Assembly: GCA_016705685.1 (NCBI GenBank)
Contig: JADJLB010000010.1
Span: forward strand, 464,501 to 528,500
DNA from: Propionivibrio sp.
GTDB lineage: Bacteria > Pseudomonadota > Gammaproteobacteria > Burkholderiales > Rhodocyclaceae
Direction: 5' to 3'
DNA: 64,000 nucleotides
Made by a program: the position numbers and the translations under genes. Of the stretch, positions 12,116 through 28,808 are shown piece by piece. How positions within the stretch are numbered: the stretch's first letter is position 1; each line of letters opens with the position of its first letter. Below the pieces are notes generated by a model. The model was not told where the DNA came from, searched no databases, and worked only from the letters and a program-made list of their open reading frames with translations.

Positions 12116-13294
12116 TTACAACAACCTTATCCACGGATTTTGTTGAGTTGTTCCGTAGCGCTTGATGAATTCTCGTGTTTCTTCCGTCAAAAGGCCCCAA
12201 CCGTGAATTTGTTCGCCTATGGTGCCACCTAAGTCGTTTAATTCAAGAATCATCGGTCCCCGGTCGGTCAGCGCAAAATCCCAATGATGAATCTTCATGA
12301 GTGGAAATACGGCCCCAGCGCGACGGCAAATATCGAGAATCCGGTCCCAACCGGGAAGTCTGAAACCTGTCAGGGATTGGCCAGAGTAGGGATGTGTCGT
12401 TATGACTTGGGTATTGGGCCAGAAGCCGCTTAACACTCTGTTGATTTCCCCATTTGTCAGTTCAACATCCGCGAGAAGGTTGCCATATTTTCCCATACTG
12501 AAGTTGTCCACTTGATTCGGTGGAACCGCAATTTTCCAAAGTGCGCGTATGGGTTTGACGCCGTCCGGACCGTTAAGACAGACTACCCGGACACCGCACA
12601 CCGCAGGCCAGTTGGTCAGGGCTTGAATTTCCGCGGCGGAAGTGAGTGCTTCCTGGAACAGGAAGCCGCATTCAGGCCTATGGTACCGACGGTCGATGGT
12701 CTCGTCCAAACGGCTCAGGAAGCTTTCGATCGAAACGGTCTTTCCATTCGGCAAAGCGAGGGTATCCGAAGAAGCGTCGTACGCTGCGAGATAGGCCGTT
12801 CCATACGCTTGTTGCGAATATGCTGGCTTGCTAAACAACGGATAAATCGACGGATCGCGAAGATAAGTTGCGACTTCCGACTTGCTTTTCAGGTGGATGC
12901 CCAGAGTGTCGGAGATTCGCCCGGAAGGGTGATAACAGGCACGAATAGGTGCAACGGGTAGCCCAGCAGAGGTGGCGAGCACGGTAAACACGCACTTGTC
13001 CCATGCCGGAAGAACGGCAGACCTCGGGTTGAGGACTAAGCTGAATTGCTCCTGCAGTCGCCACCCGAGGTAATCCGGAGCGCCACGCCCCAACTGATAA
13101 TCGTCGTCATAAAGCTTGCACCAGTAGTAATCCGAAATTCCGCATTGTCCGCCGTATTTCCGTAGCGCACGTATTTCCTGTAACTGGTCGCGCCAACTCT
13201 TACCAGTTTGTGCTCTTGCCAGCGATGCACACTCGGTGAAATCCTTAAACTGGCTTTTCAGTCTGCCCACGCGGCTTGCTAATTGGTTTTGCAT
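12116..13294 (-). CDS. Sugar-transfer-associated ATP-grasp protein, copy A
   Basis: A 392-residue protein of the ATP-grasp fold, type found beside sugar-transfer genes (ATPgrasp_ST). The C-terminal core holds GVRVVCLN, a Lys/Trp segment ALWKIAVPP, NFSMGKYGN, and the metal/ATP motif HWDFALTDRGPMILELN, in which the Asp and the E-x-N pattern are kept. ATP-grasp enzymes activate a carboxylate as acyl phosphate and join it to an amine or thiol. The substrate is unknown. It is transcribed away from a paralogue at 13620 across a shared 325-base region. It lacks the Mur/Pth features of the following cluster. Confidence 0.8.
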   Translation of the reverse strand: MQNQLASRVGRLKSQFKDFTECASLARAQTGKSWRDQLQEIRALRKYGGQCGISDYYWCKLYDDDYQLGRGAPDYLGWRLQEQFSLVLNPRSAVLPAWDKCVFTVLATSAGLPVAPIRACYHPSGRISDTLGIHLKSKSEVATYLRDPSIYPLFSKPAYSQQAYGTAYLAAYDASSDTLALPNGKTVSIESFLSRLDETIDRRYHRPECGFLFQEALTSAAEIQALTNWPAVCGVRVVCLNGPDGVKPIRALWKIAVPPNQVDNFSMGKYGNLLADVELTNGEINRVLSGFWPNTQVITTHPYSGQSLTGFRLPGWDRILDICRRAGAVFPLMKIHHWDFALTDRGPMILELNDLGGTIGEQIHGWGLLTEETREFIKRYGTTQQNPWIRLL

Positions 13295-13619
13295 CGTCGT
13301 CGTCGCCCGAGTTATCTAATCAAGTGAATCGCACCATGTTATGGGCAGCTTTTTGGTCAGGAACAACAAGCAAAACATAAGGGCCCAACCATTCTCACAA
13401 AGAGTGCACTTGTAATAGTCAAATGTAGTCCAATTGAACTACAAAGATGTTCCGAACATATCCCCGATTCTTTCCAACGCCGCTTACAATGCGCGCTTTG
13501 GCAAATCTCGAAAAGAAACATACTGCGCAGACGAACAGTAAAACCCTTATGTCCAGCGAGATGCTAAAGTATTGTTTCGGTAAATACCTTGCGATTTGTC
13601 ACACATTTCGGAGTTTTTT
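13295..13619. other. 325-base divergent region between two ATP-grasp genes
   Basis: AT-rich compared with its surroundings, without a convincing protein frame. It should hold back-to-back promoters for the two ATP-grasp genes; I see no clean sigma-70 pair or palindromic operator. The plus-side gene has a usable ribosome site CGGAG before its ATG at 13620. The low G+C may reflect recent acquisition of the flanking block. Confidence 0.4.
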
Positions 13620-14732
13620 ATGGGTTCTCTGTTAGAGAGTATTCGGGCAGCACGGGCGGCAGGGGGAAAGCCGGCATTGCTGCAACTCTTGGAGATATTG
13701 AAACTTCGTTTGCGTCAATCGCCGATAGGTATCGGTGAGTATTTTGAGTACGGGATCTGGCATGCTTCCATAACTCCCGACATGCGCGACGAGTTTATCG
13801 GCTGGAGACAGAGCGGTGATCTGGATCGGAAGCTCAACGATGTTGAATGTCGCGTGCTGGCTGAAGACAAACTGCTCAACTACATGATTCTGTGCTCCAA
13901 AGGCTTTCCGATACCTACGCCGATAGCGACTTATTGCACAAACGGACGTCAGATTGGAGACGAGAAGGCGCTCCGGACGCATGACGAGGTGCGCTCATTT
14001 CTGAAGGACGAGGTCTACCCGTTTTATGTCAAGCCGATATCTGCCGGCTATGGTCATGGCGTACTCGGGGTGACCGCGCGAGAAGATGAATCCTTTAGGC
14101 TCTTCGATGGCCGTCGAATCGGGTTGGACGAGTTCATGGCGCCCTTTTCCTTTTCACCATACAAAGGAATGTTGTTTCAGAAGCCGCTGACCTCGCATCC
14201 TGACATCGCTGAAGTGACGGGCACAGAGGCGGTCAGTTGCGTTCGCTTCATCTGCTTGGTCACTTCCGCAGGACCCGTTATCCATACTGCGTTCTGGAAA
14301 ATCACCACAGGCCGCAACATGCTCGACAATTTCTCACACGGAGACTACGGCAATTGTCTGGGTGCAATCAACATTGGAAATGGGACCATCGTGCGCGTCA
14401 TCTCCCGCATGGGACCTGGTGGTCAGATCGAACGTCACCCGACAACGCAAAAGCCTTTGCTCGGTCTGGCTTTGCCGGACTGGGACCTTGCCGTAGATAT
14501 GGTGTGCTCCGCCAGCAGACAGTTTCCGGGCCTTCGCTTGCAGAACTGGGACGTTGCGTTGTGCCCGGAAGGTCCGGTACTCCTGGAACTTAACACCGAA
14601 TCTGAACTCGCCATCCCGCAAGCGATTTCCGGACATGGTCTGAAGGACCTGCGGTTACGTGAAATCCTCGCCGATATCGAGCAGACTAGAGCGGCCTATC
14701 GCGCAGCAGTCGCGCAGCGCAACCTGAACTAA
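13620..14732 (+). CDS. Sugar-transfer-associated ATP-grasp protein, copy B
   Basis: A 370-residue paralogue of the divergent gene. The start at ATG 13620 (after CGGAG) is preferred over a TTG at 13596. The conserved core reads SCVRFICLV, AFWKITTGRNMLDNFSHGDYGN and NWDVALCPEGPVLLELN, matching copy A motif for motif. It is a predicted carboxylate-amine (or similar) ligase of unknown substrate. The gene is followed after three bases by the first of four Mur ligase-hydrolase fusions, so it almost certainly shares an operon and a pathway with them. No signal peptide or membrane segment is seen. Confidence 0.82.
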   Translation: MGSLLESIRAARAAGGKPALLQLLEILKLRLRQSPIGIGEYFEYGIWHASITPDMRDEFIGWRQSGDLDRKLNDVECRVLAEDKLLNYMILCSKGFPIPTPIATYCTNGRQIGDEKALRTHDEVRSFLKDEVYPFYVKPISAGYGHGVLGVTAREDESFRLFDGRRIGLDEFMAPFSFSPYKGMLFQKPLTSHPDIAEVTGTEAVSCVRFICLVTSAGPVIHTAFWKITTGRNMLDNFSHGDYGNCLGAINIGNGTIVRVISRMGPGGQIERHPTTQKPLLGLALPDWDLAVDMVCSASRQFPGLRLQNWDVALCPEGPVLLELNTESELAIPQAISGHGLKDLRLREILADIEQTRAAYRAAVAQRNLN

Positions 14733-14735
14733 GCG

Positions 14736-16643
14736 ATGGCGTTCTTGTTACCCTCCAAGCGCATTCGTGCCGCCCTGGCGTGGCGGGTTCGCCGGGTATT
14801 TGGCGATCAAAGCGTCGATCGCCTTTGCGTCACTTGCGCCAAAAACTGGCGCCCGCTCCTCAAGAAACCGGTTTTCATCGGCATTTGCGGTAGCGCCGGC
14901 AAGACAACGACCAAGGAACTCCTGTTGGGCGTTCTATCGCACACGCGCCGGGGCACTGCCAATCCGGCATCGCTCAACGCCCCTCCCGAAATCGCCAAGA
15001 CAATCCTGCGTGTTCGCCGAAATCACGATTTTTGCGTGACTGAACTGAGCGAGGACAAGCCCGGCGTGCTGGACGTACCCCTGGCCCTGTTAGAGCCGGA
15101 TATCGGCATCGTCACCATCGTCGGAGACGACCATTCGAGCAAGGATTACCCGCGCGAAGCCATCGCCACTGAAATAAGCAAGCTTATTGCTGCCCTCCCG
15201 GCCACCGGCACCGCCGTACTCAATGCCGACGACCCGCTGGTCCTGGCCATGGCCGAGCACAGCGTTGCCCGGGTCATCACTTACGGTGTATCGCCCCAGG
15301 CCGAGCTACGCGCCGAAAACATTACCTCAGTGTGGCCGGAGCGTTTGCAGATGACCCTGATACGCGGCACGGAGCGTGTGAGACTGCACACCCGCTTGTG
15401 CGGAACACACTGGCTCCCGGCGGTGCTCAGCGCCGTGGGTGGCGGACTGGCTGCTGGTCTGACCCTGACCGAATGTGCCGAAGGCCTGGCGACCGTTGAA
15501 CCGTTCGACGGCCGCATGCAGCCAGTGACGACGACCGATGGCGTGAGTTTCATCCGCGATGACTTCAAAGCACCCCTATGGACGGTCGATGCCTGTTTCA
15601 AATTCATGCAAGAAGCTCAGGCTAAACGAAAGATTATCGTCATCGGCGAGTTGTCGGACACCGGCTCCAGAAAAGAGTCTGGTTACGTGAGAACCGCTGG
15701 TTCTGCCCAGGAGATTGCAGACATTACAATTTTTGTAGGCCCGTGGGCATCCAGCGTTTTCAAAGCACGCAAGACCAGCGGACTACACAAATTGCTTGCA
15801 TTCAATCATGTTCTGGATGCGGCCAATTATCTTAACTCAATCGTCGGCGAGGGTGATTTGGTGTTGCTCAAAGGCAATGCGAAGAACGACCATCTGCTGC
15901 GCATTATTCTGGCGCGGAGCGAGAAAATTGCCTGCTGGCGCGACGACTGCGCACGGGATTCTTTTTGTAACGAATGCCCGCATCGCAACAAGCCTTCCGG
16001 TTCGCCGGCATGCGCAGTCGACGCATCGCCTGGAGTTCCCGAGCCACGAGAAATACCACTCTGGCTGCGCCCCATCGAATCGGGCGAACAGGTGATCGTC
16101 GGCCTGGGCAACCCCGACGAGAAATATGCCGGGACGCCGCATAATGTCGGCTACGAGTTCGTCGACCATCTGCTTGCTTCTGCAGCATTGAACTGGGATG
16201 AGACCCCCGAAGCCCGAATCGCGCGCGGGGCGTTCCAAGGTCATCAAGTATGCCTGGTCAAGATCAGAATGCCGATGAATCTGATCGGCGGTGGTCTGAA
16301 GCGACTGGCCGAACAAATGGACTTTTCACCTGAACAATGCATTCTCATCTACGACGATCTGGACTTGCCCGTAGGCACCGTACGCAGTCGCCTGAAAGGC
16401 AGCGCGGGAGGTCATCGTGGCGTCGCATCGATCCTGGAGGCCTTCCAGACCGACGCCATACGGCGAATAAAAATCGGGGTGGGCCAGACGGGCGTAAAGC
16501 TTGACGTTGTTAATTACGTTCTTTCCCCTTTTGACGTAGCGAGTCGTAAGTCCGTTGACTTGGCAATCTCGTTGGCCAAAACACATGTGCTGGATATTGT
16601 CGAACGCCCCAATACAGTGAAAGGTTCGTCGCGGAAAACGTAA
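14736..16643 (+). CDS. MurF-like ligase fused to peptidyl-tRNA hydrolase-like domain, copy 1
   Basis: A 635-residue two-domain protein. A short basic N-terminal helix (1-45) replaces the UDP-substrate domain of MurF. The Mur ligase core follows with P-loop GSAGKTTTK (52-60), catalytic-Glu region TELSEDKPG, His motif DDHSSKDYPRE, NADD, and the C-terminal Mur domain (GRMQPVTT, RDDFKAPLWTVDACF). A linker has four Cys (400, 405, 411, 414; C-x4-C-x5-C-x2-C). The Pth-like domain (about 453-625) keeps GLGNP, the catalytic His (TPHNVGYE), MNLIGGG and YDDLDLP, but has GGHRG where Pth usually has GGHNG. The Lys that is carbamylated in Mur ligases appears replaced (ATEISK). Starts three bases after the ATP-grasp gene. 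Substrate unknown. Confidence 0.85.
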   Translation: MAFLLPSKRIRAALAWRVRRVFGDQSVDRLCVTCAKNWRPLLKKPVFIGICGSAGKTTTKELLLGVLSHTRRGTANPASLNAPPEIAKTILRVRRNHDFCVTELSEDKPGVLDVPLALLEPDIGIVTIVGDDHSSKDYPREAIATEISKLIAALPATGTAVLNADDPLVLAMAEHSVARVITYGVSPQAELRAENITSVWPERLQMTLIRGTERVRLHTRLCGTHWLPAVLSAVGGGLAAGLTLTECAEGLATVEPFDGRMQPVTTTDGVSFIRDDFKAPLWTVDACFKFMQEAQAKRKIIVIGELSDTGSRKESGYVRTAGSAQEIADITIFVGPWASSVFKARKTSGLHKLLAFNHVLDAANYLNSIVGEGDLVLLKGNAKNDHLLRIILARSEKIACWRDDCARDSFCNECPHRNKPSGSPACAVDASPGVPEPREIPLWLRPIESGEQVIVGLGNPDEKYAGTPHNVGYEFVDHLLASAALNWDETPEARIARGAFQGHQVCLVKIRMPMNLIGGGLKRLAEQMDFSPEQCILIYDDLDLPVGTVRSRLKGSAGGHRGVASILEAFQTDAIRRIKIGVGQTGVKLDVVNYVLSPFDVASRKSVDLAISLAKTHVLDIVERPNTVKGSSRKT

Positions 16644-16653
16644 GGCCGACACC

Positions 16654-18603
16654 ATGCGGGTAACATTGAGCACGAGTATTCGTCGTTTTCGGAGAGCTCT
16701 TGCGTGGCGCCTGCACAGGCTGCTCGGCGACCGCATCATCTACGGCACGCTGCTTGCGAGCGCCAGGCTCTGGCGCCGGATGCTAAAGAAACCGGTGTTC
16801 ATTGGCGTCACGGGTAGCGCCGGCAAGACCATGGCGAAAGAACTCGTGCTGGGAATACTCACGCACAAGGGGAAAGGCGTTGGAAACTTTTCGTCCTACA
16901 ACAACATCGAAGAAATCGCCAAGCCCATGCTGCGGTTGCGTCCAACGCACGGCTTCTTCGTCACCGAGCTAACCGGGGACAAGCCCTATGCCATGGACAA
17001 GTCGCTTGCCCTGGTTCAGCCCAGCATCGGCATCGTCACCGTGGTGCGCGACGATCATTCGAGCAAGGACTACCCGCGTGAGGCCATCGCCAAGGAAAAA
17101 GGCAAGCTCATCGCTTCGCTCCCGGCCACCGGCACCGCTGTCCTCAATGCCGATGACGAACTGGTTCTCGCCATGGCGGCCAAGTCCACCGCCAAGGTCA
17201 TCACCTATGGCCTTTCTCCCAAAGCAGAACTTCGCGCCGAAAACATCAGCTCGGTGTGGCCGGATCGTTTGCAGATGACCCTGGTGCGCGGCTCGGAGCG
17301 CGTAGAACTCCGCACTCAGTTGTGCGGAACGCACTGGGTTCCTTCCGTGCTGGGCGCCATTGGCGGTGGACTCGCTGCCGGCATGACCTTGGTCGAATGC
17401 GCCACGGGCGTCGCCCGTGTTCCCCCCTTTGACGGACGCATGCAAGCGGTGACAACGCCGGATGGGGTGACGTTCATCCGTGATGACTACAAAGCGCCTT
17501 TGTGGACGGTCGACGCGTGCTTCGAATTCATGAAGTCGGCGCGAGCCAAGCGGAAAATCATCGTCATCGGCGAATTGCAAGATATTGGCTCGCAGAAAGG
17601 AGCGCAATTCGCCAAAACCGCGATCCTTGCTCAGAAAATTGCGGACATAACTATTTTTGTAGGCCCGTGGGCTTCCAGCGTACTGAAGACGCGCAGGCCG
17701 GGAGTGGGCGATGCTTTACGAACCTTCAGCCACGTCCGGGATGCCACCGAGTTCATTAATTCCATTTCCCGTGAAGGCGATCTGATCTTGCTCAAGGGAG
17801 CCAACAAACAAGACCACCTATTGCGCATCATCCTTGCCCGGAACGGAGATGTGGCCTGCTGGCGGGACGACTGCAATCGATATTCATTCTGCAATGAGTG
17901 CCCTGATCGGAATAAGCCTTCCGGCTTGCCGATATTGACGGCCAGTGCAACAGTATCGGGCGCAACGGCTCAGGCGCCACCATCGGGTCTGAGCCCGGTG
18001 GAGGGCGACGGACAGGTGATTGTCGGCCTTGGCAACCCAGAGCCACACTACACCGGCACGCCGCACAACGTCGGTTACGAGGCGGCGGATCGACTCGCTG
18101 CCTCCTGGGGACTTAAATGGGACAAGAACCCCGAAGTCTGGTTCGCTCGCGGTTCGGTTAACGGTCAAGCGGTATGTCTGCTCAAGATGAGATTGGCCAT
18201 GAACCTCACCGGCCCAGGATTGAAGCAGCTATCGGAAACGATGCGCTTTAGCCCCGAACAATGCATTCTTGTCTTCGACGATCTTGATATGCCACTTGGT
18301 TCCGTACGATCCCGAATGAACGGCGGTGCGGGCGGGCATCGCGGCGTTGCTTCGATTCTGGAGGCATTTCAAACAGATGCCATAAGACGGGTCAAGATCG
18401 GCGTCGGCCAAACGGGGATAAAGATAGATCGCGCCGCTTACGTCGTGAAGGCATTTGATGCCCTGAGTCAAGCGGCCATAAATCAGTCGCTACTGACTGC
18501 TATTGCGCACGTAGGAAGATTCGTAGAGCACTCAAACGTTTCAAAGCGGAAATCACCAAGCGCATCGACTAAGAAACAGAAACATGCATTCCCTCCCCTA
18601 TAG
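16654..18603 (+). CDS. MurF-like ligase fused to peptidyl-tRNA hydrolase-like domain, copy 2
   Basis: The longest copy (649 residues), with the same order: basic N-terminal helix, P-loop (GSAGKTMAK, last Thr pair altered), DDHSSKDYPRE, and a Lys-rich AKEKGKL that keeps the lysine expected to be carbamylated in Mur ligases. The NADD motif, Mur C-domain, linker with CWRDDC...CNEC, and Pth-like domain (GLGNPEPHYTGTPHNVGYE, MNLTGPG, FDDLDMP, GGHRG) complete it. A Lys/Ser-rich tail extends the C-terminus. Its last 20 bases overlap the next copy. About 430 bp (17041-17470) is almost identical to copy 3, suggesting gene conversion. It is distinct from housekeeping murF because the UDP-binding domain is absent. 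Confidence 0.85.
   Translation: MRVTLSTSIRRFRRALAWRLHRLLGDRIIYGTLLASARLWRRMLKKPVFIGVTGSAGKTMAKELVLGILTHKGKGVGNFSSYNNIEEIAKPMLRLRPTHGFFVTELTGDKPYAMDKSLALVQPSIGIVTVVRDDHSSKDYPREAIAKEKGKLIASLPATGTAVLNADDELVLAMAAKSTAKVITYGLSPKAELRAENISSVWPDRLQMTLVRGSERVELRTQLCGTHWVPSVLGAIGGGLAAGMTLVECATGVARVPPFDGRMQAVTTPDGVTFIRDDYKAPLWTVDACFEFMKSARAKRKIIVIGELQDIGSQKGAQFAKTAILAQKIADITIFVGPWASSVLKTRRPGVGDALRTFSHVRDATEFINSISREGDLILLKGANKQDHLLRIILARNGDVACWRDDCNRYSFCNECPDRNKPSGLPILTASATVSGATAQAPPSGLSPVEGDGQVIVGLGNPEPHYTGTPHNVGYEAADRLAASWGLKWDKNPEVWFARGSVNGQAVCLLKMRLAMNLTGPGLKQLSETMRFSPEQCILVFDDLDMPLGSVRSRMNGGAGGHRGVASILEAFQTDAIRRVKIGVGQTGIKIDRAAYVVKAFDALSQAAINQSLLTAIAHVGRFVEHSNVSKRKSPSASTKKQKHAFPPL
17041..17470 (+). 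repeat. Near-identical block shared with copy 3 (partner at 18971-19400)
   Basis: By eye, 17041-17415 and 18971-19345 are identical (375 bases). A single difference follows at 17416, another at 17454, and then divergence resumes after about 17470. Flanking parts of the two genes differ much more, including at silent sites. The block codes for the central Mur ligase domain from the DDHSSKDYPRE motif to the start of the C-terminal domain. Confidence 0.9.
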
Positions 18604-20479
18604 AACTTTCATTCGCGTGCGTAATGCCATTGGCTGGCGTCTTCGCCGGGTTTTCGGAGATCATGGGGTCGACGCCGCGATGATTGCCTGTGCCAAGTGT
18701 TGGCGGCCCCTGCTGAAGAAACCGCTGTTCATTGGCGTTACCGGAAGCGCCGGGAAAACTACGACCAAAGAGCTCTTGCTGGGGATGCTTGCGCACAAGG
18801 GTCACGCGGTTGGCAACGATGGTTCCTACAGCAATATCGACAAGCAGGCCGAGGCATTGCTGCGACTCGCTCCGAACCACAGCTTTTTTGTAACCGAGCT
18901 CTCCGGTCACCGACCCGGTGAAATGGACGAGAACCTGCCGTTGGTGCGGCCGACCATCGGCATCGTCACTGTGGTGCGCGACGATCATTCGAGCAAGGAC
19001 TACCCGCGTGAGGCCATCGCCAAGGAAAAAGGCAAGCTCATCGCTTCGCTCCCGGCCACCGGCACCGCTGTCCTCAATGCCGATGACGAACTGGTTCTCG
19101 CCATGGCGGCCAAGTCCACCGCCAAGGTCATCACCTATGGCCTTTCTCCCAAAGCAGAACTTCGCGCCGAAAACATCAGCTCGGTGTGGCCGGATCGTTT
19201 GCAGATGACCCTGGTGCGCGGCTCGGAGCGCGTAGAACTCCGCACTCAGTTGTGCGGAACGCACTGGGTTCCTTCCGTGCTGGGCGCCATTGGCGGTGGA
19301 CTCGCTGCCGGCATGACCTTGGTCGAATGCGCCACGGGCGTCGCCAGTGTTCCCCCCTTTGACGGACGCATGCAAGCGGTGACGACGCCGGATGGGGTGA
19401 CATTCATCAGAGATGATTTCAAAGCACCCCTGTGGACGCTCGATACGTGCTTCGAATTCATGAAGTCGGCGCAAGCCAAGCGGAAAATCATCGTCTTTGG
19501 TGAGATTTCAGACGCCGGCCACAAAAAAGGGGCGAAGTACGCGAAAACCGCACGCCTGGCCCAGAACATTGCCGATGTGACGGTTTTCGTTGGCACATGG
19601 GCGTCCAGTGCACTGAAGGCGCGGAAGCCTGGTGAGGAAGACAAATTGCGCGCGTTCAGCCATGCCCGCGATGCGACTGAGTACATCAAGTCAATCACAC
19701 GCGAGGGCGATCTGATTCTGCTCAAAGGAACAAACAGACAAGACCATCTGCAACGTATCCTCTTGGCGCAAAGTGGCAAAGTTGCCTGCTGGCGCCAGGA
19801 CTGCAACAGGGTTTCATTCTGCAACGAGTGCCCCGACCTGAACACGCCGTCCGGCGCACCGCTCTTGCTGCAGCAGCAGAACAGCGAAGCCCCAACGCCC
19901 GAAGCGCCGCCATCTAGCCCGCAAGTATCCGAACCTGACCTACAGGTGGTTGTCGGTCTTGGCAACCCAGAAACGAAGTATGCCAATACGCCACATAACG
20001 TCGGCTATGAGGTGGTGGACCAACTGGCGGCCTCGTTGAAACTGAATTGGGACGCGACACCCGAAGCCTGGATTGCACGCGGATCATCGAAGGGGCGTGC
20101 TGTTTGTCTGATCAAGATCAGAATGCCCATGAATGGAATCGGCACTGGGCTGAAGCAGTTTTCGGAAAGCATGACCTGCAGCCCCGAAGACTATGTTCTG
20201 GTTTACGACGATCTCGACCTGCCGCTCGGCGCCGTGAAGACCCGATTACGCGGCGGTGCCGGAGGGCATCGTGGCGTCGCCTCGATCCTGGAGGCGTTTC
20301 AAACCGACGACATAAGACGGGTCAAGATCGGTGTGGGCAAAGCGGGAGAAGAACTTGATCGCGTCAGCTATGTTCTGACGGCTTTTGATGCGGAATGCCG
20401 CAGCGCCATTGACCTGTCGATTTTGACTGCCGAGGCGCGCGTAGTCGAACTGTTGGAACGCCAGCCCAAAAGAGAGTGA
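18584..20479 (+). CDS. MurF-like ligase fused to peptidyl-tRNA hydrolase-like domain, copy 3
   Basis: A 631-residue member of the tandem family. It begins inside the end of copy 2 (20-base overlap), which suggests translational coupling. P-loop GSAGKTTTK, TELSGHRPGEMD in place of the usual SEDKPG, DDHSSKDYPRE, AKEKGKL lysine and NADDELV are followed by the Mur C-domain. The linker is CWRQDC...CNECPDLN, then a Pro/Glu/Ala-rich spacer, then the Pth-like domain (GLGNPETKYANTPHNVGYE, MNGIGTG, YDDLDLP, GGHRG). The central 430 bp is shared with copy 2. Function as for the other copies: predicted ATP-dependent amide ligase joined to an ester-hydrolase fold, substrate unknown. Confidence 0.85.
   Translation: MHSLPYRTFIRVRNAIGWRLRRVFGDHGVDAAMIACAKCWRPLLKKPLFIGVTGSAGKTTTKELLLGMLAHKGHAVGNDGSYSNIDKQAEALLRLAPNHSFFVTELSGHRPGEMDENLPLVRPTIGIVTVVRDDHSSKDYPREAIAKEKGKLIASLPATGTAVLNADDELVLAMAAKSTAKVITYGLSPKAELRAENISSVWPDRLQMTLVRGSERVELRTQLCGTHWVPSVLGAIGGGLAAGMTLVECATGVASVPPFDGRMQAVTTPDGVTFIRDDFKAPLWTLDTCFEFMKSAQAKRKIIVFGEISDAGHKKGAKYAKTARLAQNIADVTVFVGTWASSALKARKPGEEDKLRAFSHARDATEYIKSITREGDLILLKGTNRQDHLQRILLAQSGKVACWRQDCNRVSFCNECPDLNTPSGAPLLLQQQNSEAPTPEAPPSSPQVSEPDLQVVVGLGNPETKYANTPHNVGYEVVDQLAASLKLNWDATPEAWIARGSSKGRAVCLIKIRMPMNGIGTGLKQFSESMTCSPEDYVLVYDDLDLPLGAVKTRLRGGAGGHRGVASILEAFQTDDIRRVKIGVGKAGEELDRVSYVLTAFDAECRSAIDLSILTAEARVVELLERQPKRE
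18971..19400 (+). repeat. Near-identical block shared with copy 2 (partner at 17041-17470)
   Basis: Second member of the pair, displaced by exactly 1930 bases from the first. Both lie in the same frame and position in their genes, as expected for gene conversion or a recent partial duplication rather than an inserted element. No terminal inverted repeats flank it. Confidence 0.9.
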
Positions 20480-20486
20480 CGAAATA

Positions 20487-22382
20487 ATGCGTATGACTTC
20501 GTTTGACATTCTCACCCGCTTGTCCGGGGCGCTGCTGTGGCGCATTCGCAAGCTGGTGGGCGACGATCTGGTTGATCGGGCCATGCTCAAAATTGCTCCG
20601 TACTGGCGCCCCTTCCTCAAAAAGCCGATATTCATCGGGGTTACTGGCAGTGTCGGCAAGACCACGACCAAGGAGCTATTGCTTGGCATGCTGGGCCGCA
20701 ACGGTCGTGGTGTGGGCACGGTCGGTTCGTTGAATAATATCGATGCGTCGGCACAGGCGATACTGCGCCTTCGTCCGAGTGATACTTTCTTCGCCGCAGA
20801 ATTGAGTGAAGACAAGCCGGGGGTGTTGGACGAACAACTCGCCCTGCTGCAACCGGATGTTGGCATTGTCACCATCGTGGGCTACGACCATTGGAGCGCT
20901 TACGATTCCCGCGAAGCCATCGCCGCCGAAATGGGTAAACTGGTCGCGGCGCTCCCGGCCACCGGCACCGCCGTGCTCAATGCCGACGATGAATTGGTTT
21001 TGACCATGGCTACCCACTGTGCCGCAAGGATCATCACTTACGGCGTATCGCCCCAGGCCGAACTGCGGGCCGAAAACATCGGTTCCATGTGGCCTGAGCG
21101 TTTGCAGATGACTCTGGTGCGCGGTACGGAACAGGTTTCATTACAAACCCAGCTGTGTGGTACGCACTGGATACCGTCAGTGCTCGGAGCCGTCGGCGGC
21201 GGACTGGCCGCCGGCCTGTCGCTTGAGGCGTGTGTCGCAGGAATCGCCAGCGTGGCGCCTTTTGTCGGCCGCATGCAACCGGTGACGACGACTGATGGCG
21301 TGACCTTTATCCGCGATGACTTCAAGGCTCCTTTATGGACAGTTGACGCCTGTTTCGAATTCTTGAAGACAGCGCGGGCCGAGCGGAAAATACTGGTCAT
21401 CGGTTCCCTTTCCGACTGCGGTGCCGGAGCACCGGAAAAATACATCAAGGTCGCCAAGCAAGCGCAGGAAATTGCCGACTTAACAATATTCGTCGGCCCT
21501 TGGGCATCGCAAGTTCTAAAGGCTCGCAAGTCCGGAACGCAAGATGTATTGCGCGCGTTCCGGAATGTCCGCAATGCCGCCGAGTACCTGAATTCGATCA
21601 CTCGCGAGGGCGACCTGGTGGTACTCAAAGGCACCAACAAACAGGACCATTTGCTGCGCGTCATCTTGGCGCGTACCGGGGATATCGCCTGCTGGCGTGA
21701 TGATTGCGGGCGCATGGCCTTCTGTAACGAATGCGCTGATCGAAGCAAGCCTTCCGGCTTGCCCGCATTTGTCGTCGGTGCCCCGGCTGAAGTTCGCGAA
21801 CCACGAGAAACACCACTCTGCCTGCGCCCCATCGAATCGGGCGAACAGGTAATCGTCGGCCTGGGCAACTCCGACGCGAAATATGCCGGGACGCCGCATA
21901 ACGCTGGCTACGAGCTCGTCGACCATCTGCTTGTTTCCGCAGGATTGAACTGGGATGAGACTCCCGAAGCCTGGATCGCGCGCGGGATACTTCAAGGTCA
22001 TCGAGTGTGCCTCGTCAAGATCAGAATGGCGATGAACCTGATTGGTGGCGGTCTGAAACGGCTGGCTGAACAGATGGCGATTGAGCCTGAACAATGCATT
22101 CTCATCTACGACGATCTCGACATGCCATTGGGTTCCATTCGCAGCCGTCTGAGCGGTGGCGCGGGTGGTCATCGTGGCGTCGCGTCAATCCTCGAGGCCT
22201 TCCAGACCGATGCCTTCCGTAGGGTGAAGGTCGGTGTCGATCAAGAGGGGGCAAAGCTCAATCGCGTTGACTATGTCCTGACACCGCTTTCCGCAGTCAG
22301 CCGCGATGTCGTCGACCAGGCGATGCAGACCGCAGAAGCGCATGTCCTCAAATTGCTTGCCGCTCAGAAAAAAACCTCTTGA
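20487..22382 (+). CDS. MurF-like ligase fused to peptidyl-tRNA hydrolase-like domain, copy 4
   Basis: The last of four, 631 residues, starting seven bases after copy 3. The P-loop is GSVGKTTTK. The His motif differs (YDHWSAYDSREA instead of DDHSSKDYPREA). The Lys position reads AAEMGK, so the carbamylated lysine seems absent, as in copy 1. The linker is CWRDDC...CNECADRS. The Pth-like domain (GLGNSDAKYAGTPHNAGYE, MNLIGGG, YDDLDMP, GGHRG) has Ser for the Pro after the conserved Asn. Linker and hydrolase part resemble copy 1 more closely (about nine bases in ten identical) than the rest of the gene does. It ends facing the XrtA-associated hydrolase gene. Confidence 0.85.
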   Translation: MRMTSFDILTRLSGALLWRIRKLVGDDLVDRAMLKIAPYWRPFLKKPIFIGVTGSVGKTTTKELLLGMLGRNGRGVGTVGSLNNIDASAQAILRLRPSDTFFAAELSEDKPGVLDEQLALLQPDVGIVTIVGYDHWSAYDSREAIAAEMGKLVAALPATGTAVLNADDELVLTMATHCAARIITYGVSPQAELRAENIGSMWPERLQMTLVRGTEQVSLQTQLCGTHWIPSVLGAVGGGLAAGLSLEACVAGIASVAPFVGRMQPVTTTDGVTFIRDDFKAPLWTVDACFEFLKTARAERKILVIGSLSDCGAGAPEKYIKVAKQAQEIADLTIFVGPWASQVLKARKSGTQDVLRAFRNVRNAAEYLNSITREGDLVVLKGTNKQDHLLRVILARTGDIACWRDDCGRMAFCNECADRSKPSGLPAFVVGAPAEVREPRETPLCLRPIESGEQVIVGLGNSDAKYAGTPHNAGYELVDHLLVSAGLNWDETPEAWIARGILQGHRVCLVKIRMAMNLIGGGLKRLAEQMAIEPEQCILIYDDLDMPLGSIRSRLSGGAGGHRGVASILEAFQTDAFRRVKVGVDQEGAKLNRVDYVLTPLSAVSRDVVDQAMQTAEAHVLKLLAAQKKTS

Positions 22383-22520: not shown

Positions 22521-23375
22521 TCAGCGCTCCAGTGATGCCAGCCAGTCGAGCGTGGCATCCTCGACTTTCAAACGCAGTGCTTGTGCCGAGAAGGTATGGT
22601 CGGCATCGGGTGGCTCGACTCGGCTGATTCGGTCTGTGTCTAGGAGACCCGCCCACGCGGCGTTTGCACCCGCATATTCGAGAAACTCCTTGGCCGTGTA
22701 ATCCTCCCCGCTCAGTATCAGCAGCACTCGGCCAGAAAATTGCCTCAACCCTTCGGCCATACGATCCTGAAAAGAACGAATTTCGCCTTCCGCGTGATCG
22801 CTTGTACCACGGGCTTTGAGTGCGCTGGTCACCAAGCCACGAACCGATTGGAACAACGACAGCTTTCCGCTCAGCAATTTGATCCAGAACTCCCGTTGCA
22901 GCAAGCGCTGGCCATAGTAGTGTTTGATATGCGTCTGCGCCAGACTGGCCTCGGAACGGACCCAGGGGTTGAGCAATACGAGTCCGGCGATCCGCGAATC
23001 CCTGGTAGCCTGCACGTACAGCAGCGCACTCGATGCGGCGTCGCACAAGCCCCACAGCACGACGCGCCGAATCGTCGGACATGAACTCTGGAACGTATCA
23101 AGCGCCGCGCCGATATCGTCGGTAACTTCCTCGAAATTGCGCATCGCGCCATCGCTGTCGCCCATCCCTCGATAGTCGAATCGCATGGTCGGATAGCCCT
23201 CAGCCGCCAATCGGCGCGTCAGCAGTAGAAACTGGCGATGACTACCCACGCGGTACTGCGGGCCACCAACGACAATCAACACGCCACAGTCGATCGGCGT
23301 ATCCGGTGTGGCAACGATGCCCAGCAGCTGCTCGCCACCGACCGGAAAAACCACGGCCTGCTCGGCGTAATTCAT
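22521..23375 (-). CDS. XrtA-associated alpha/beta hydrolase 1
   Basis: A 284-residue alpha/beta hydrolase of the exosortase A-associated type 1 family. The start ATG at 23375 overlaps the upstream stop (ATGA), which is preferred over a longer frame to 23429. Visible are VVGGPQYRVGSHRQF, FDYRGMGDSDG and GLCDAASSAL, where Cys sits at the position of the usual nucleophile Ser, followed by Asp/His regions towards the C-terminus (DADHTFS). The substrate is unknown; such genes co-occur with an acyl carrier protein and acyl-CoA ligase in XrtA loci, as here. It faces the Mur-Pth cluster tail to tail. Confidence 0.88.
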   Translation of the reverse strand: MNYAEQAVVFPVGGEQLLGIVATPDTPIDCGVLIVVGGPQYRVGSHRQFLLLTRRLAAEGYPTMRFDYRGMGDSDGAMRNFEEVTDDIGAALDTFQSSCPTIRRVVLWGLCDAASSALLYVQATRDSRIAGLVLLNPWVRSEASLAQTHIKHYYGQRLLQREFWIKLLSGKLSLFQSVRGLVTSALKARGTSDHAEGEIRSFQDRMAEGLRQFSGRVLLILSGEDYTAKEFLEYAGANAAWAGLLDTDRISRVEPPDADHTFSAQALRLKVEDATLDWLASLER

Positions 23376-24217
23376 TGTACGGGCACTTCTGTCATAGCCG
23401 CGAGACTGGCCTCGAGCAGCGCCGGGCACTCGGAAATTTCGGCGGTTTGCCAGAACGCCGGGCCACCAACCGCTTGGCCTCGTGCGCTACGCCCCGCCGC
23501 CTGCCACTTCTCAAGCCGTATGCTGGCCAGTGGCGACAGGCTTGCTTCAGCATCCTGCCTGGCCGACAACTCAAGCCATTCGATCCTTACGGTTTGACCG
23601 GCCGGCAATAGCTCCGCCTGCTCCAGACCGCTGGCCAAAGCCGGCGATAGGCGGTAACCGGCAATCTCGACTGGTTGACCTTGCGCCAATTGCCCGCGAA
23701 GACGCTCCATCAACCCCTTGGCGTCGCCACCCTGCATTTCGCCGGCCAGTTTCAAGCGCAGAAACTGCTGCAGAAACTGCTTGCCCGAAACAACCGGCTG
23801 CCACAGCAATAAATTACTTGGCCGGTCGATCCGGGCAGCCGCAGCGCTGGCCAGCAAACCACCGACACGCAGCCCCCAAATCCAGAGTTCGGCAGTGCTA
23901 CGCTGCTGCAACCAATGGCAGGCCAGGCACACGTCTTCAACCCAGCGCTCCCAACTGGCATCGCCAAAGTCGCCCGAGCTGTCGCCACAGCCTTGCAGGT
24001 CGATCTGCAGCACGCCATAACCCACTGCGGCCAGCGCCCTTGCCTGGAGGGCCACCATCCGCCTCGACTTGTTCATCTCCTCGGCAAACGGATGAACATA
24101 CACGACCGCGCCGCGCCAGTCGGATTGCGTTTCGGGCTGATAAAACAGGCAAAAACGCCGGCCCGATTTATCTTTTGCATCCGATGCGACAGGCAAAAAG
24201 AAGGCGTCAAGGGTCAT
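23372..24217 (-). CDS. XrtA-associated alpha/beta hydrolase 2
   Basis: A 281-residue alpha/beta hydrolase of the exosortase A-associated type 2 family. The opening MTLDAFFLP, the segment YVHPFAEEMNKSRRM and DLQGCGDSSGDFGD are characteristic. The usual nucleophile elbow reads WGLRVGGLL, without Ser or Cys at the expected place, so it may be non-catalytic. It is translated just before hydrolase 1 and starts 12 bases after the acyl carrier protein. The three genes form one minus-strand operon. Confidence 0.87.
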   Translation of the reverse strand: MTLDAFFLPVASDAKDKSGRRFCLFYQPETQSDWRGAVVYVHPFAEEMNKSRRMVALQARALAAVGYGVLQIDLQGCGDSSGDFGDASWERWVEDVCLACHWLQQRSTAELWIWGLRVGGLLASAAAARIDRPSNLLLWQPVVSGKQFLQQFLRLKLAGEMQGGDAKGLMERLRGQLAQGQPVEIAGYRLSPALASGLEQAELLPAGQTVRIEWLELSARQDAEASLSPLASIRLEKWQAAGRSARGQAVGGPAFWQTAEISECPALLEASLAAMTEVPVQ

Positions 24218-24696: not shown

Positions 24697-26298
24697 ATGA
24701 CCGATTCCTTTCTCCTCCACGACCTGATCACTCGATCGACCGAGATCAACCCGCAGGCCATTGCACTGACCTACGGCAAGCAGTCGATAACATACGGTGA
24801 ACTGTGTGGTTCGATCGAAGGCTTCGTCAGCGGCATGCGCGAACTCGACCTGCAGCGTGGCGAACGAATCGCCATTTACCTTGAAAAACGTTTTGAGACG
24901 GTCATCGCCAGCTTTGGCGCGACAGCGGCCGGCTGCGTATTCGTTCCGCTTAACCCCTTGCTCAAACCCGATCAGGTCGCCTACATCATGCGCGACTGCA
25001 ATGTGCGCGCGCTGATCACCTCGAATGAGCGCCTGCCGCTGCTAACCCCGGTCATGGAGGCCTGCCACGATTTGCGCCATGTCCTGTTGGTCAATGCCGA
25101 AACGCTGCCGTCGAGCGGTAGCCCGGTCTCCTATTTGCGCTGGGACGACTTGCTGAAATCACCTTTGCGTACCGGCCATCGAGTGATTGACACCGACATG
25201 GCCGCCATCCTCTACACCTCGGGCAGTACCGGCAAACCCAAGGGCGTGGTGCTATCGCACCGCAACATGGTCGCCGGCGCGAAAAGCGTGGCGAGCTACC
25301 TGGGAAATACGGCCGATGACACCCTGCTGGCCGCCCTCCCCCTGTCTTTCGACGCCGGCTTCAGCCAACTGACTACGGCCTTCCATTGCGGCGCACGCGT
25401 TGTGCTGCTCAACTATTTGCTGCCCCGCGATGTGCTCAAGGCACTGGAGCGCGAAAAGGTTACCGGACTGACCGCCGTTCCACCGCTTTACATCCAGCTC
25501 ACGCAACTGGAATGGCCAGCCGGCATCACCGAACATCTGCGCTACTTCGCCAATACCGGCGGACGCATGCCGCGTGAGACGCTGGCCGCACTGCGCTCGC
25601 GTCTACCCAAGACAAAGCCGTATCTGATGTACGGCTTGACTGAAGCTTTCCGCTCGACCTACCTGCCTCCGGGTGAAGTGGACCGCCGGCCGGACTCGAT
25701 CGGCAAAGCCATCCCAAATGCCGAAATTCTTGTCCTGCGCGACGACGGTTCGCCGTGCGCACCCAATGAGCCGGGCGAACTGGTGCATCGCGGCGCACTG
25801 GTTGGTATGGGCTACTGGAACGATCACGAAAAGACCGCCGAGCGCTACAAGCCGCTGCCGAGCGGCACGCCGGGCCGCGAAGCCGGATTGGTGCTGCCGG
25901 AACTGGCCGTTTTTTCAGGCGACACGGTGCGCCAGGACGAAGAGGGGTTCCTCTACTTCATCGGACGCCGCGACGAGATGATGAAGACATCAGGCTACCG
26001 GGTCAGCCCGACCGAGGTCGAGGAAGTGATATATGCCACCCGACTGGTCGGTGAATGCGTCGCCTTCGGTGTCGATCACGACCAGCTCGGCCAGGCGATC
26101 CAGGTCATCGCCACGCCCGCTCGCGAAGGCGGCGATTTCGATACGACCGAATTGCTTGCCGAATGCCGCCGACTGATGCCGGCCTATATGGTGCCGGCGC
26201 ACATCGATGTACGGGAGGGGCCGTTGCCACGCAACCCGAACGGCAAAATTGACCGCAAGGCCTTATCCACCGAATGGAACGAGCGTCAGCGCGCTTGA
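24697..26298 (+). CDS. Acyl-CoA ligase (AMP-forming), XrtA-associated
   Basis: A 533-residue ANL-superfamily adenylating enzyme. The AMP-binding core motif YTSGSTGKPKGVVLSH is near residue 173. YGLTEAF lies near 312 and the hinge IGRRDEMMKTSGYRVS near 422; the catalytic Lys is in NPNGKIDRK at the C-terminus. It likely activates a carboxylic acid for loading on the adjacent carrier protein. It matches the exosortase A-associated ligase family, which is followed by the PLP decarboxylase in known loci, as here. Confidence 0.92.
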   Translation: MTDSFLLHDLITRSTEINPQAIALTYGKQSITYGELCGSIEGFVSGMRELDLQRGERIAIYLEKRFETVIASFGATAAGCVFVPLNPLLKPDQVAYIMRDCNVRALITSNERLPLLTPVMEACHDLRHVLLVNAETLPSSGSPVSYLRWDDLLKSPLRTGHRVIDTDMAAILYTSGSTGKPKGVVLSHRNMVAGAKSVASYLGNTADDTLLAALPLSFDAGFSQLTTAFHCGARVVLLNYLLPRDVLKALEREKVTGLTAVPPLYIQLTQLEWPAGITEHLRYFANTGGRMPRETLAALRSRLPKTKPYLMYGLTEAFRSTYLPPGEVDRRPDSIGKAIPNAEILVLRDDGSPCAPNEPGELVHRGALVGMGYWNDHEKTAERYKPLPSGTPGREAGLVLPELAVFSGDTVRQDEEGFLYFIGRRDEMMKTSGYRVSPTEVEEVIYATRLVGECVAFGVDHDQLGQAIQVIATPAREGGDFDTTELLAECRRLMPAYMVPAHIDVREGPLPRNPNGKIDRKALSTEWNERQRA

Positions 26299-26324
26299 TG
26301 CGCGCTTGCCCCAAGGAACCGCCC

Positions 26325-27569
26325 ATGTCAGCCAGCGACCGCCAAAGCCCGACGCATGCACCGATGACCCAGTTTTCCGTGATCGACGGCGAGCTGGTCG
26401 TTGGCGGCATTCCCCTCACCCGCCTCGCCGCACGTGTCGGGAAGACGCCGTTTTACGCCTACGACCGGCAGTCGCTGGCCCAGCGCGTTGCCCGACTGCG
26501 GGCAGCCCTCCCTAAATCCATCAAGTTGCACTATGCGATGAAGGCCAACCCGATGCCGGCCCTGGTGTGCCATATGGCCGGACTGGTTGACGGTATCGAC
26601 GTGGCCTCCGGCGGTGAGCTCAAGATTGCGCTCGACAGCGGGGCCAATGTACATGACATCAGCTTTGCCGGTCCCGGAAAGAATCGCGACGAACTGCAGC
26701 AGGCTGTTGCCGCCGGCATTTTGATCAATATCGAGTCCTTCCGCGAAGTGGCCGAACTCGCGAGAATCCGCGAAGAATCCGGATTCCTCGGTCGTGTTGC
26801 CGTACGCGTCAATCCCGATTTCGAACTGAAAAGTTCGGGCATGAAGATGGGCGGCGGTCCCAAGCAGTTCGGTGTCGACGCCGAACAAGTGCCCGAACTG
26901 CTGGCTGAAATCGGCCGCGCCGGGTTGACGTTCGAAGGCTTTCATCTGTTTGCCGGCTCGCAAAACCTGAAACCCGAAGCCATCGTCGAAGCGCAGTGCA
27001 AGAGCTTTGAGCTGGCGCTTCGATTGGCACAATCCGCGCCCTCGCCGGTGCGTTTTCTGAATCTAGGCGGCGGCTTTGGCATCCCCTACTTTCCCGGCGA
27101 AGCACACCTCGATCTGGCGCCGATTGGCGCCAATCTTGCCACCCTCACCGAACGCGCACAGCGCGAACTTCCCGGAGCCGAATTGGTCATCGAGCTGGGG
27201 CGTTATCTGGTCGGCGAAGCCGGTATTTATGTGGCGCGCGTGGTCGACCGGAAAATTTCACGCGGACAAATCTTTCTCGTAACCAATGGCGGCTTGCACC
27301 ACCACCTCTCGGCCTCCGGAAATTTTGGCCAGGTGATCCGCAAGAACTACCCTGTGGTCATCGGGAATAGAATGAATGCGGCACTGCAAGAAAGCGCTTC
27401 GGTAGTCGGTGTGCTATGCACTCCGCTGGACCTGTTGGCCGACCGGATGGAACTGGCCGCAGCGCAACCCGGCGATCTGGTCGTCATCTACCAATCCGGC
27501 GCCTACGGGTTCACCGCGAGCCCGCAAGCCTTTCTCGGCCATCCGGCGTGTATCGAGGTTCTGGTATGA
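26325..27569 (+). CDS. PLP-dependent decarboxylase, XrtA-associated
   Basis: A 414-residue fold-type III decarboxylase related to diaminopimelate and ornithine decarboxylases. Start at ATG 26325 after AAGGAACC; the frame extends upstream into the ligase gene. The PLP lysine is in HYAMKANPMPAL (about residue 69). The phosphate-binding Gly-rich region is NLGGGFGIP, and the C-terminal YQSGAYGFTASP completes the active site. It belongs to the exosortase A-associated decarboxylase family; the amino acid decarboxylated is unknown. The product amine could be a precursor for EPS decoration. It overlaps the ligase operon closely. Confidence 0.92.
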   Translation: MSASDRQSPTHAPMTQFSVIDGELVVGGIPLTRLAARVGKTPFYAYDRQSLAQRVARLRAALPKSIKLHYAMKANPMPALVCHMAGLVDGIDVASGGELKIALDSGANVHDISFAGPGKNRDELQQAVAAGILINIESFREVAELARIREESGFLGRVAVRVNPDFELKSSGMKMGGGPKQFGVDAEQVPELLAEIGRAGLTFEGFHLFAGSQNLKPEAIVEAQCKSFELALRLAQSAPSPVRFLNLGGGFGIPYFPGEAHLDLAPIGANLATLTERAQRELPGAELVIELGRYLVGEAGIYVARVVDRKISRGQIFLVTNGGLHHHLSASGNFGQVIRKNYPVVIGNRMNAALQESASVVGVLCTPLDLLADRMELAAAQPGDLVVIYQSGAYGFTASPQAFLGHPACIEVLV

Positions 27570-27599: not shown

Positions 27600-28808
27600 T
27601 TGGAATTGGAGCTTGCTCGATTCGACCCTGAACCTTGCGGTTTCCCGAGACCGCGGCTATCCCCTTTGCCCAACCAGCCCGATATTTCAATATTTCGCGG
27701 GTCGCGGCCCGGAAGTTCGCTGCCCATCGACATCGGCAACTTCCGTCACTTCACACGTGGCCGATATGCCTTGGGCGAGGCCTATAGGCTCGCCGGCGTC
27801 AATCGCGATGGTGCACTACTCGCCCCGGCTTACCATTGTGTCACGATGCTTGACCCGGCCATGGCGCTCGGTGCTGACATTGTGCTCTACCCCCTGCAGC
27901 CCGATCTGTCACCGGTTCTGAACAAACTCGATGAACTGCTGGCAGCGTATGGCAAGCCGGTCAAGGCCTTTCTGGCCACGCACTATTTTGGCTTGGCAAA
28001 GAACTTCAGCCATCTGAAGAAATGGTGCGACAGGCATGACATCGTACTCATCGAGGATTGCTCGCATACGTTGTTTACCGAAGCCTTTCAAGCAGCCGGG
28101 ACGGGCATCTATGGACGCTTCGTCGCGTCCAGCCCATATAAATTTTTTGCTTGCGAAGATGGCGGTTTGCTTTATTCGCCAGATGCCGTACTTCTCGATA
28201 CGGTGAAGACCAGGCCAGCCGGTGTGGTGGAAGAGCTTCGCGGCATCAAGCGAGTCATCGAGAAATGCCGCTCAAATGGTCCAACTGCCTCCGATAGTGA
28301 ACTGATCGACGCGAGACTTGCCGAACTGAATGTAAAACCGCTGATCGAAGGCAACAATCGGATTACGGCGTATGACCACCCTTCGTCCCTTTATACCGCA
28401 GAGGAATCCGGGTTAAGCTCGCTGATGGGTTCGCGATGCATTGTCCGTCTATCTTCACTAACAGAAAATATGAAGCGCCGGCGGAATAACTACCAGCGCT
28501 GGGCCAAGGCCGTGGCGGAACTGCCGAATTGCCACGCATTGTTTCCCGAGCTGCCCGAATACTGTTTCCCGTACATGTTCCCGCTACACATCAAGCACGC
28601 TAAGCCGCACTTTTACTGGTTGAAGCAATTGGGAACTCCGGTCTGGCGCTGGGACGAAATGGTCATTTCAGGCTGCCCCATTGCGCAGGACTATCGACTT
28701 CATCTGCTGCACCTGGCGTGTCATCAATCACTGACGGATCTACAGCTCGACTGGATGATCACCGTGTTGCAAAAAACGCTCCGTTCGCCTTGGCAAGGAG
28801 TGAAGTAA
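27600..28808 (+). CDS. DegT/DnrJ/EryC1-like aminotransferase
   Basis: A 402-residue protein resembling sugar aminotransferases of the DegT family: APAYHC, FLATHYFGLAKN, then LIEDCSHT with the Asp-x-x-His motif, and SPYKFFACEDGGLL, whose Lys is the expected PLP anchor. Its start is uncertain: the frame opens with TTG at 27600 and no ATG occurs in the first 80 codons. It stops on the ATG of the next gene (TAATG), so it is coupled to the triple-GNAT protein. A role in making an amino-sugar or aminated precursor is inferred. Confidence 0.78.
   Translation: MELELARFDPEPCGFPRPRLSPLPNQPDISIFRGSRPGSSLPIDIGNFRHFTRGRYALGEAYRLAGVNRDGALLAPAYHCVTMLDPAMALGADIVLYPLQPDLSPVLNKLDELLAAYGKPVKAFLATHYFGLAKNFSHLKKWCDRHDIVLIEDCSHTLFTEAFQAAGTGIYGRFVASSPYKFFACEDGGLLYSPDAVLLDTVKTRPAGVVEELRGIKRVIEKCRSNGPTASDSELIDARLAELNVKPLIEGNNRITAYDHPSSLYTAEESGLSSLMGSRCIVRLSSLTENMKRRRNNYQRWAKAVAELPNCHALFPELPEYCFPYMFPLHIKHAKPHFYWLKQLGTPVWRWDEMVISGCPIAQDYRLHLLHLACHQSLTDLQLDWMITVLQKTLRSPWQGVK

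Follow-up and report, generated by a model that had tools for sequence, protein, structure and literature searches.

What might an enzyme do that carries a Mur-type ligase and a peptidyl-tRNA hydrolase (Pth) in one chain, and why would a genome encode it four times in a row? The question is raised by four consecutive genes, here called w1 to w4, in a 64,000-nucleotide stretch of a Propionivibrio sp. genome (GenBank assembly GCA_016705685.1, contig JADJLB010000010.1, positions 464,501 to 528,500; hereafter the window). In general, a Mur ligase uses ATP to activate a carboxylate, which it then links in an amide, and Pth splits an ester, with a carboxylate as one product. An initial annotation, made from the letters alone, had proposed four consecutive Mur ligase-Pth fusion genes at 14736-22382, and this was borne out by Pfam: all four open reading frames (ORFs) match Mur_ligase_M (84.6-100.5 bits, cut-off 24), Mur_ligase_C (44.8-52.5 bits, cut-off 28.4) and Pept_tRNA_hydro (136.3-146.2 bits, cut-off 27), in every case above the gathering score. 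The order of the parts is Mur_ligase_M, Mur_ligase_C, a four-cysteine (Cys4) motif and Pth, the Cys4 motif being a feature beyond the earlier description. The genes lie head to tail on the plus strand with ATG starts, zero internal stops and spacings of +10, -20 and +7 nt, and the other three products are 63, 63 and 68% identical to that of w1. Chance is excluded as the source of this architecture because of the E-values and because the ratio of nonsynonymous to synonymous substitution rates (dN/dS) of w4 against its orthologue in a second genome of the genus is about 0.11 in both domains. Since the four genes are tightly spaced and only 3 nt separate w1 from the end of a preceding ATP-grasp ORF, all five likely form a single operon.

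A full-text search of open-licence papers in PubMed Central found no paper that treats a Mur ligase together with a peptidyl-tRNA hydrolase, a Pth domain fused to a ligase, or a Mur ligase together with ATP-grasp and exosortase, in line with the earlier remark that no described system with this fusion was known. The nearest precedent found, in a section of PMC2922099, is the prediction of Mur ligases in operons with cyclodipeptide synthases. Thus, the parts are known and the architecture appears to be new.

The two halves of the fusion proteins

Against the murF model (TIGR01143) w1 to w4 score 171.8-182.2 bits, below the cut-off of 288.6, and the match begins at position 58-63 of 418. Therefore, the N-terminal MurF domain is absent, which agrees with the Mur core without UDP-substrate domain claimed at the outset. 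When the Mur half of w3 was modelled with AlphaFold (43 sequences; predicted local distance difference test, pLDDT, 88.7; predicted template modelling score, pTM, 0.88), a single long helix (residues 6-43) took the place of that domain, and the top nine matches of a fold search were MurF chains (Acinetobacter, Pseudomonas PaMurF, E. coli and Thermotoga). A full-length w3 model (5 sequences; pLDDT 65.3, pTM 0.44), in which the linker 384-450 falls below 50 pLDDT, was set aside for fold comparison. A Mur tree of 26 rows separates 18 family members from 8 MurF with support 100/100, and the housekeeping MurF encoded elsewhere in the same genome (3.46 Mb, 97% complete) places inside the MurF clade. 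Judged by sequence and predicted fold, the Mur half is a MurF-derived clade without UDP-binding domain and with Cys4 at its end. The fusions share with MurF (UDP-MurNAc-tripeptide:D-Ala-D-Ala ligase) the middle and C-terminal domains, the P-loop, the catalytic Glu/His and NxDD, whereas MurF has a UDP-binding domain, has 'D-YNANPxS' in place of the 'DDFKAPLWT' of the fusions, and lacks their Cys4 tail.

Residues of the ATP site are well preserved. P-loop G, G, K and T as well as E105, H135, N165, D167, D168, R262, D277 and K381 are kept in w1 to w4 and likewise in 38/38 MurF-like proteins (38 of the 79 other loci from the homologue search). Column 280 is N in all 38 of these rows and K in the four window copies and in L008, the locus of a Gammaproteobacteria metagenome-assembled genome (MAG). 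The Cys4 cysteines align in 22/22 family rows, with one extra residue between the second and third Cys in genome G351, and we infer that the motif probably binds zinc.

MurD, MurE and MurF need a carbamylated lysine. The position which we take to correspond to it by alignment with MurE, 149 in w2 to w4 and 147 in w1, holds K in w2 and w3, I in w1 and M in w4. For MurE, this lysine is treated in a passage of PMC3829189. The lysine is present in 37 of the 38 MurF-like rows, and in a separate set of housekeeping MurF two of nine rows have H or N instead. Among family members it is kept in 13/13 rows from single-copy fusions, the one fusion of reversed domain order and stand-alone ligases (a tandem pair in genome G789 was counted as stand-alone) and in 2/9 fused rows from multi-copy genomes (Fisher p = 0.0002, for rows that share ancestry and a grouping chosen after the data were seen). 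Loss of the lysine was considered as proof of a dead ligase and dropped in view of the H or N in housekeeping MurF; it makes inactivity probable. On these residues, w2 and w3 look like competent ligases, and w1 and w4, which keep the Pth active site and lack the Mur lysine, probably act as their partners.

The rear half matches the pth model (TIGR00447) over nearly its whole length, with 124-135 bits for w1 to w4 against a cut-off of 100. N10, H20, N68 and D93 are kept in 13/13 fused Pth domains, and N10, H20 and D93 are named as crucial for Pth in a section of PMC4929431. The rear half is therefore most likely a Pth-fold esterase with intact catalytic residues. It differs from ordinary Pth1 (TIGR00447/PF01195) in being joined to a ligase and in two positions: position 114 is R or K in 13/13 fused domains versus N in 39/39 ordinary Pth (30 loci, those with the highest scores in 60 genomes of the same phylum, and 9 from other family genomes), and P stands for R19 in 12/13. 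Both changes had been considered as marks of a new specificity. This was dropped, as Pth of other phyla carry R/K at 114 in 5/25 and P at 19 in 6/25 rows (30 genomes searched, 29 matched, 4 loci without an extractable row). Positions 103, 105 and 132 are Arg or Lys in 12/13 fused domains. The fused domain is additional to the ordinary enzyme: each of the six fusion genomes found encodes one separate, higher-scoring Pth (211 bits in the Propionivibrio genome).

Distribution and joining history

Genomes are cited by working numbers, G000 being that of the window and G022 belonging to the same genus; the samples searched overlap. With a full-length model, the fusion was found only in G000 and G022 among 59 genomes (own and 58 relatives), and in G000 and G216 among 399 genomes of the order. 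In G022 this neighbourhood is divided between two contigs and comprises three complete copies, fragments of at least one further copy at the contig ends and the ATP-grasp gene. A Mur-only model matched 12 of 369 genomes of the class at E 1e-55; inspection of the 11 others revealed a Pth only in G802 and, in reversed order, in G766. The same model matched 28 of 398 genomes of the phylum. Those inspected include four of genus g205, which reach family level and have frames of 443-451 aa; 23 others score like ordinary MurF. The Gammaproteobacteria MAG HKST-UBA184 (genome G846, locus L008) carries two fusions. G850 is a Terriglobia MAG by title, and in its phylum 189 of 297 genomes matched; inspection covered the five strongest, whose frames of 428-474 aa are too short for a fusion. 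In total, six fusion genomes were found (G000, G022, G216, G802, G846 and, reversed, G766), with one fusion each in G216 and G802 and a copy number ranging from 1 to at least 4. Among viral contigs 99 pattern matches contained zero relatives, and none of 29 phage records (E 1e-10) or 13 plasmid records (E 1e-20) covers 80% of the query. Thus, the fusions are rare and patchy in these samples, and stand-alone members occur in more genomes.

Stand-alone members of the clade are found in G141, G351, G567, G789 (two in tandem), Gemmobacter aquarius and the four g205 genomes. The G. aquarius protein (WP_108437331.1), plasmid-borne and annotated as 'Mur ligase family protein', resembles the fusions in lacking the N domain, in the Mur core and Cys4 tail and in its polysaccharide cluster, but has no Pth domain; in the Mur tree it forms, like G351a, a long branch of unsure placement. 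The tandem pair of G789 (L204, 9025-11699) consists of Mur-Cys4 ligases without Pth, with no EPS (exopolysaccharide) neighbours recognised. Three further loci (L174, L176 and L177) encode MurF-like proteins of 530-537 aa, perhaps another MurF-derived group, in which the N-terminal region reads as hydrophobic and apparently membrane-spanning.

In the G766 protein, Pth (aa 10-194) precedes Mur (aa 261-597), opposite to the other fusions, and its Mur half groups with the stand-alone ligase of G567 (97/95), apart from the forward fusions. Because of this domain order and tree placement, Mur and Pth domains were most likely joined at least twice. In the Pth tree, from which 8 near-copies were dropped, all 12 Pth domains of forward fusions fall into a single clade (99/98) that adjoins no donor, and the reversed Pth is a long branch elsewhere. 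One clade uniting it with the forward domains is not rejected (approximately unbiased test, p 0.48), so that a separate origin of the two Pth domains is unsupported by this tree. That the same partners were joined in two orders is the strongest hint of this analysis, and suggests that both activities belong together.

From their sequences, w1 to w4 are to be read as paralogues from one expansion. A tract of 375 nt in the catalytic middle domain is identical in w2 and w3, which are mostly about 57-75% identical outside it, with windows bordering the tract at 82-91%. Gene conversion is the likely source, an assembly fault the alternative. Against its orthologue in G022 (G022d), w4 has a dN/dS of 0.108 in the Mur and 0.117 in the Pth domain (dS 0.88 and 0.74). 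Because the ratio is this low in both halves, both are under purifying selection and w4 is not decaying despite its missing lysine. Eight other pairs gave dN/dS of 0.08-0.32 at dS of 0.45-2.9, of which the highest are saturated and prove less.

Genomic neighbourhood

The coordinates of the array and its neighbours are collected in Table 1. The initial annotation had placed the array beside ATP-grasp genes and an XrtA EPS locus, and the PF14397 matches, the exosortase A score and the two hydrolase genes adjoining the array uphold this. Farther along, the XrtA EPS region holds FemAB, deacetylase, ATPase, tyrosine kinase and chain-length genes, and the 1123-aa GNAT protein may resemble FemAB. No tRNA genes were found in the window. 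Two genes of the region are incomplete. The XrtA glycosyltransferase stp1 (TIGR03087; 53641-54848, minus strand) is split by a frameshift, in the gene or in the assembly, into two overlapping frames covering profile positions 1-143 and 142-396. A putative O-glycosylation ligase (TIGR03097; 44229-45005, minus strand), an ORF of 258 aa that matches only 62-276 of 408, is possibly truncated.

Table 1. Positions in the window of the fusion genes, their motifs and shared tracts, and neighbouring genes
Feature	Position	Strand	Remarks
w1 Mur-Pth fusion	14736..16643	+	635 aa; Mur_M/Mur_C aa 50-381, Pth aa 453-623; Ile147 at lysine position
w2 Mur-Pth fusion	16654..18603	+	649 aa; Mur aa 52-383, Pth aa 455-626; Lys149 present
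w3 Mur-Pth fusion	18584..20479	+	631 aa; Mur aa 52-383, Pth aa 455-625; Lys149 present
w4 Mur-Pth fusion	20487..22382	+	631 aa; Mur aa 52-383, Pth aa 455-625; Met at Lys149 position
Cys4 motif of w1	15933..15977	+	CxxxxC-x5-CxxC
Cys4 motif of w2	17857..17901	+	
Cys4 motif of w3	19787..19831	+	
Cys4 motif of w4	21690..21734	+	
375-nt tract of w2	17041..17415	+	identical to w3 18971..19345; catalytic middle domain
375-nt tract of w3	18971..19345	+	identical to w2 17041..17415
Second ATPgrasp_ST protein	12116..13294	-	86.8 bits; divergent
ATP-grasp ligase (PF14397 ATPgrasp_ST)	13596..14732	+	127 bits; 3 nt upstream of w1
Hydrolase 1, exosortase A system-associated	22521..23429	-	TIGR03100
Hydrolase 2, exosortase A system-associated	23372..24217	-	TIGR03101
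AMP-forming acyl-CoA ligase, exosortase A system-associated	24697..26298	+	TIGR03098, 780 bits
Pyridoxal phosphate-dependent decarboxylase, exosortase A system-associated	26274..27569	+	TIGR03099, 639 bits
1123-aa protein, three GNAT (Acetyltransf_6) stretches	28718..32089	+	
Exosortase A (XrtA) with EpsI domain	52056..53627	-	341 bits, cut-off 208

ATPgrasp_ST genes adjoin the Mur gene in five genomes, G000, G022, G216, G141 and G1333. G1333 belongs to the phylum of the Terriglobia MAG; at its locus (L266, 9859-12411), a stand-alone Mur-Cys4 ligase is followed by an ATPgrasp_ST gene 57 nt after it. Cyanophycin synthetase likewise has ATP-grasp and Mur-type ligase side by side, which in the window are adjacent genes; unlike the present system, it is one chain without Pth, and w1 to w4 score 34-56 with its NCBIfam models against cut-offs of 850-877. 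MurT-GatD also combines a Mur fold with Cys4, the place of which in MurT is different: in the fusions, Cys4 follows the C domain, and a MurT chain ranked only 47th in the fold search.

The proposed tie to XrtA loci held in part. The fusion stands beside XrtA genes in G000, G022 and G216, 3/6 fusion genomes, and not in G802; in G846 and G766 no XrtA ligase above the cut-off was found. TIGR03098 exceeded its cut-off in five of ten genomes tested, near the fusion in three of them; it lies on a different contig in G802, falls below the cut-off in G766 and has no match at E 1e-50 in G846. The three linked loci resemble the XrtA/PEP-CTERM EPS loci of Haft et al. (2006), in whose main text (PMC1569441) a term search found no mention of Mur ligase, peptidyl-tRNA or ATP-grasp. 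Among stand-alone members, the Gemmobacter gene sits in a glycosyltransferase cluster, the G567 Mur gene has an asparagine-synthase gene immediately upstream and a polysaccharide pyruvyl transferase about 8 kb away, and one of the G351 copies is likewise preceded by an asparagine-synthase gene. About 2.4 kb from the G802 fusion lies an ORF that reads as an ArfB-like peptidyl-tRNA hydrolase (L202, 6434-6925, minus strand).

Possible functions

We tentatively favour, with rather less than even confidence, that the fusion is an amide ligase which works with its ATP-grasp partner on a precursor of a surface polymer, and in which the Pth-like esterase releases or proofreads an ester. The front half, an ATP-dependent ligase derived from MurF that lost the UDP-nucleotide-binding domain, would together with the neighbouring ATP-grasp ligase couple a carboxylate through an amide bond to an amino acid, a peptide or an amino sugar, on what we infer to be a cell-surface polymer precursor. 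The Pth half would cleave an aminoacyl or peptidyl ester on a tRNA or tRNA-like carrier, thereby supplying or proofreading the ligation. Potentially, w2 and w3 would be the ligases of the array, and w1 and w4 would contribute a live esterase.

Several observations weigh against this proposal. The lysine is missing in 7/12 fused proteins, and the change of N114 to R/K cannot be read as altered specificity when Pth of other phyla share it. Since 'DDFKAPLWT' replaces the 'D-YNANP' motif, the substrates need not be those of MurF. G141, G351, G567 and G789 have stand-alone ligases and no second Pth; therefore, the ligase does not need Pth. The stand-alone G141 groups with the fused G802 in the Mur tree (100/99), which implies either a loss of Pth in G141 or more than one origin of the forward fusion. 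No polysaccharide or ATP-grasp gene was recognised near the G802 fusion, nor near the stand-alone genes of G789, G1451 and genus g205, on a reading of the ORFs without family scans. In G846 the contigs are short (3.7 and 6.9 kb) and the context hardly visible, and in G766 the HldE-like and WaaA-like (lipopolysaccharide) ORFs, identified by reading, lie more than 5 kb off with other genes between.

Among the alternatives, an unlikely one is a genuine peptidyl-tRNA hydrolase acting on stalled or drop-off peptidyl-tRNA, the Mur half of which would modify the released peptide or serve as a regulatory NTPase. Scores above the TIGR00447 cut-off, the catalytic residues, the Arg/Lys at positions 103, 105 and 132, the presence of the deviating residues in Pth of other phyla and the ArfB-like ORF near the G802 fusion would all suit such an enzyme. 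However, every fusion genome already has a separate, higher-scoring Pth, the fusion is rare and patchy, and the window copies lie inside an EPS locus. Also unlikely is a non-catalytic scaffold that binds RNA or a complex. PAP11 and CRS2, a Mur-like protein in the plastid RNA polymerase and a Pth-like splicing factor, are among the solved relatives matched, and the frequent absence of the lysine would be expected of such a protein, but all 13 domains conserve the Pth catalytic residues, the window copies retain the P-loop and the rest of the ATP-site residues, and every row of single-copy fusion, reversed fusion and stand-alone ligase has the lysine, which speaks against a scaffold.

Recent gene amplification without distinct roles, as dosage or as drift of the array, is improbable: the paralogy, the likely gene conversion and the variable copy number are consistent with it, yet w4 and G022d differ with a dN/dS of 0.108-0.125, and the orthology of w4 has been kept between species. 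Least probable is the four-step relay suggested in the initial annotation, in which each paralogue would add a different residue like MurC-D-E-F, for although adjacent divergent copies occur in two congeneric genomes with w4 and G022d as clear orthologues, MurC, D, E and F are separate families and w1 to w4 one expansion, the catalytic domains of w2 and w3 have the identical tract in common, the lysine is absent from w1 and w4, and G216 and G802 have one copy only.

Returning to the ligase with a partner esterase, it is tempting to speculate on a bolder variant, a long shot in our estimate, in which both halves act on one molecule. The Pth half would free an N-blocked aminoacyl or peptidyl ester from tRNA, and the Mur half would use ATP to activate the same carboxylate thus exposed and join it to an amine on a polysaccharide or protein. 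It is worth testing because the domains occur in opposite orders and because active sites are kept in the Pth half and in those Mur halves that have the lysine. If true, it would be a transfer of peptides from tRNA to a polymer distinct from FemABX and from Mur or non-ribosomal peptide synthetase chemistry.

In summary, the clade of MurF-derived ligases with Cys4 and without UDP domain is seen in Pseudomonadota, with Gemmobacter aquarius and a Gammaproteobacteria MAG among its members, and the phylum of the Terriglobia MAG. Within it, the fusions provide the testable claim that the substrates of a Mur-type ligase and of a tRNA-ester hydrolase are linked; if this is true, tRNA or aminoacyl esters would be connected to the decoration of surface polymers.

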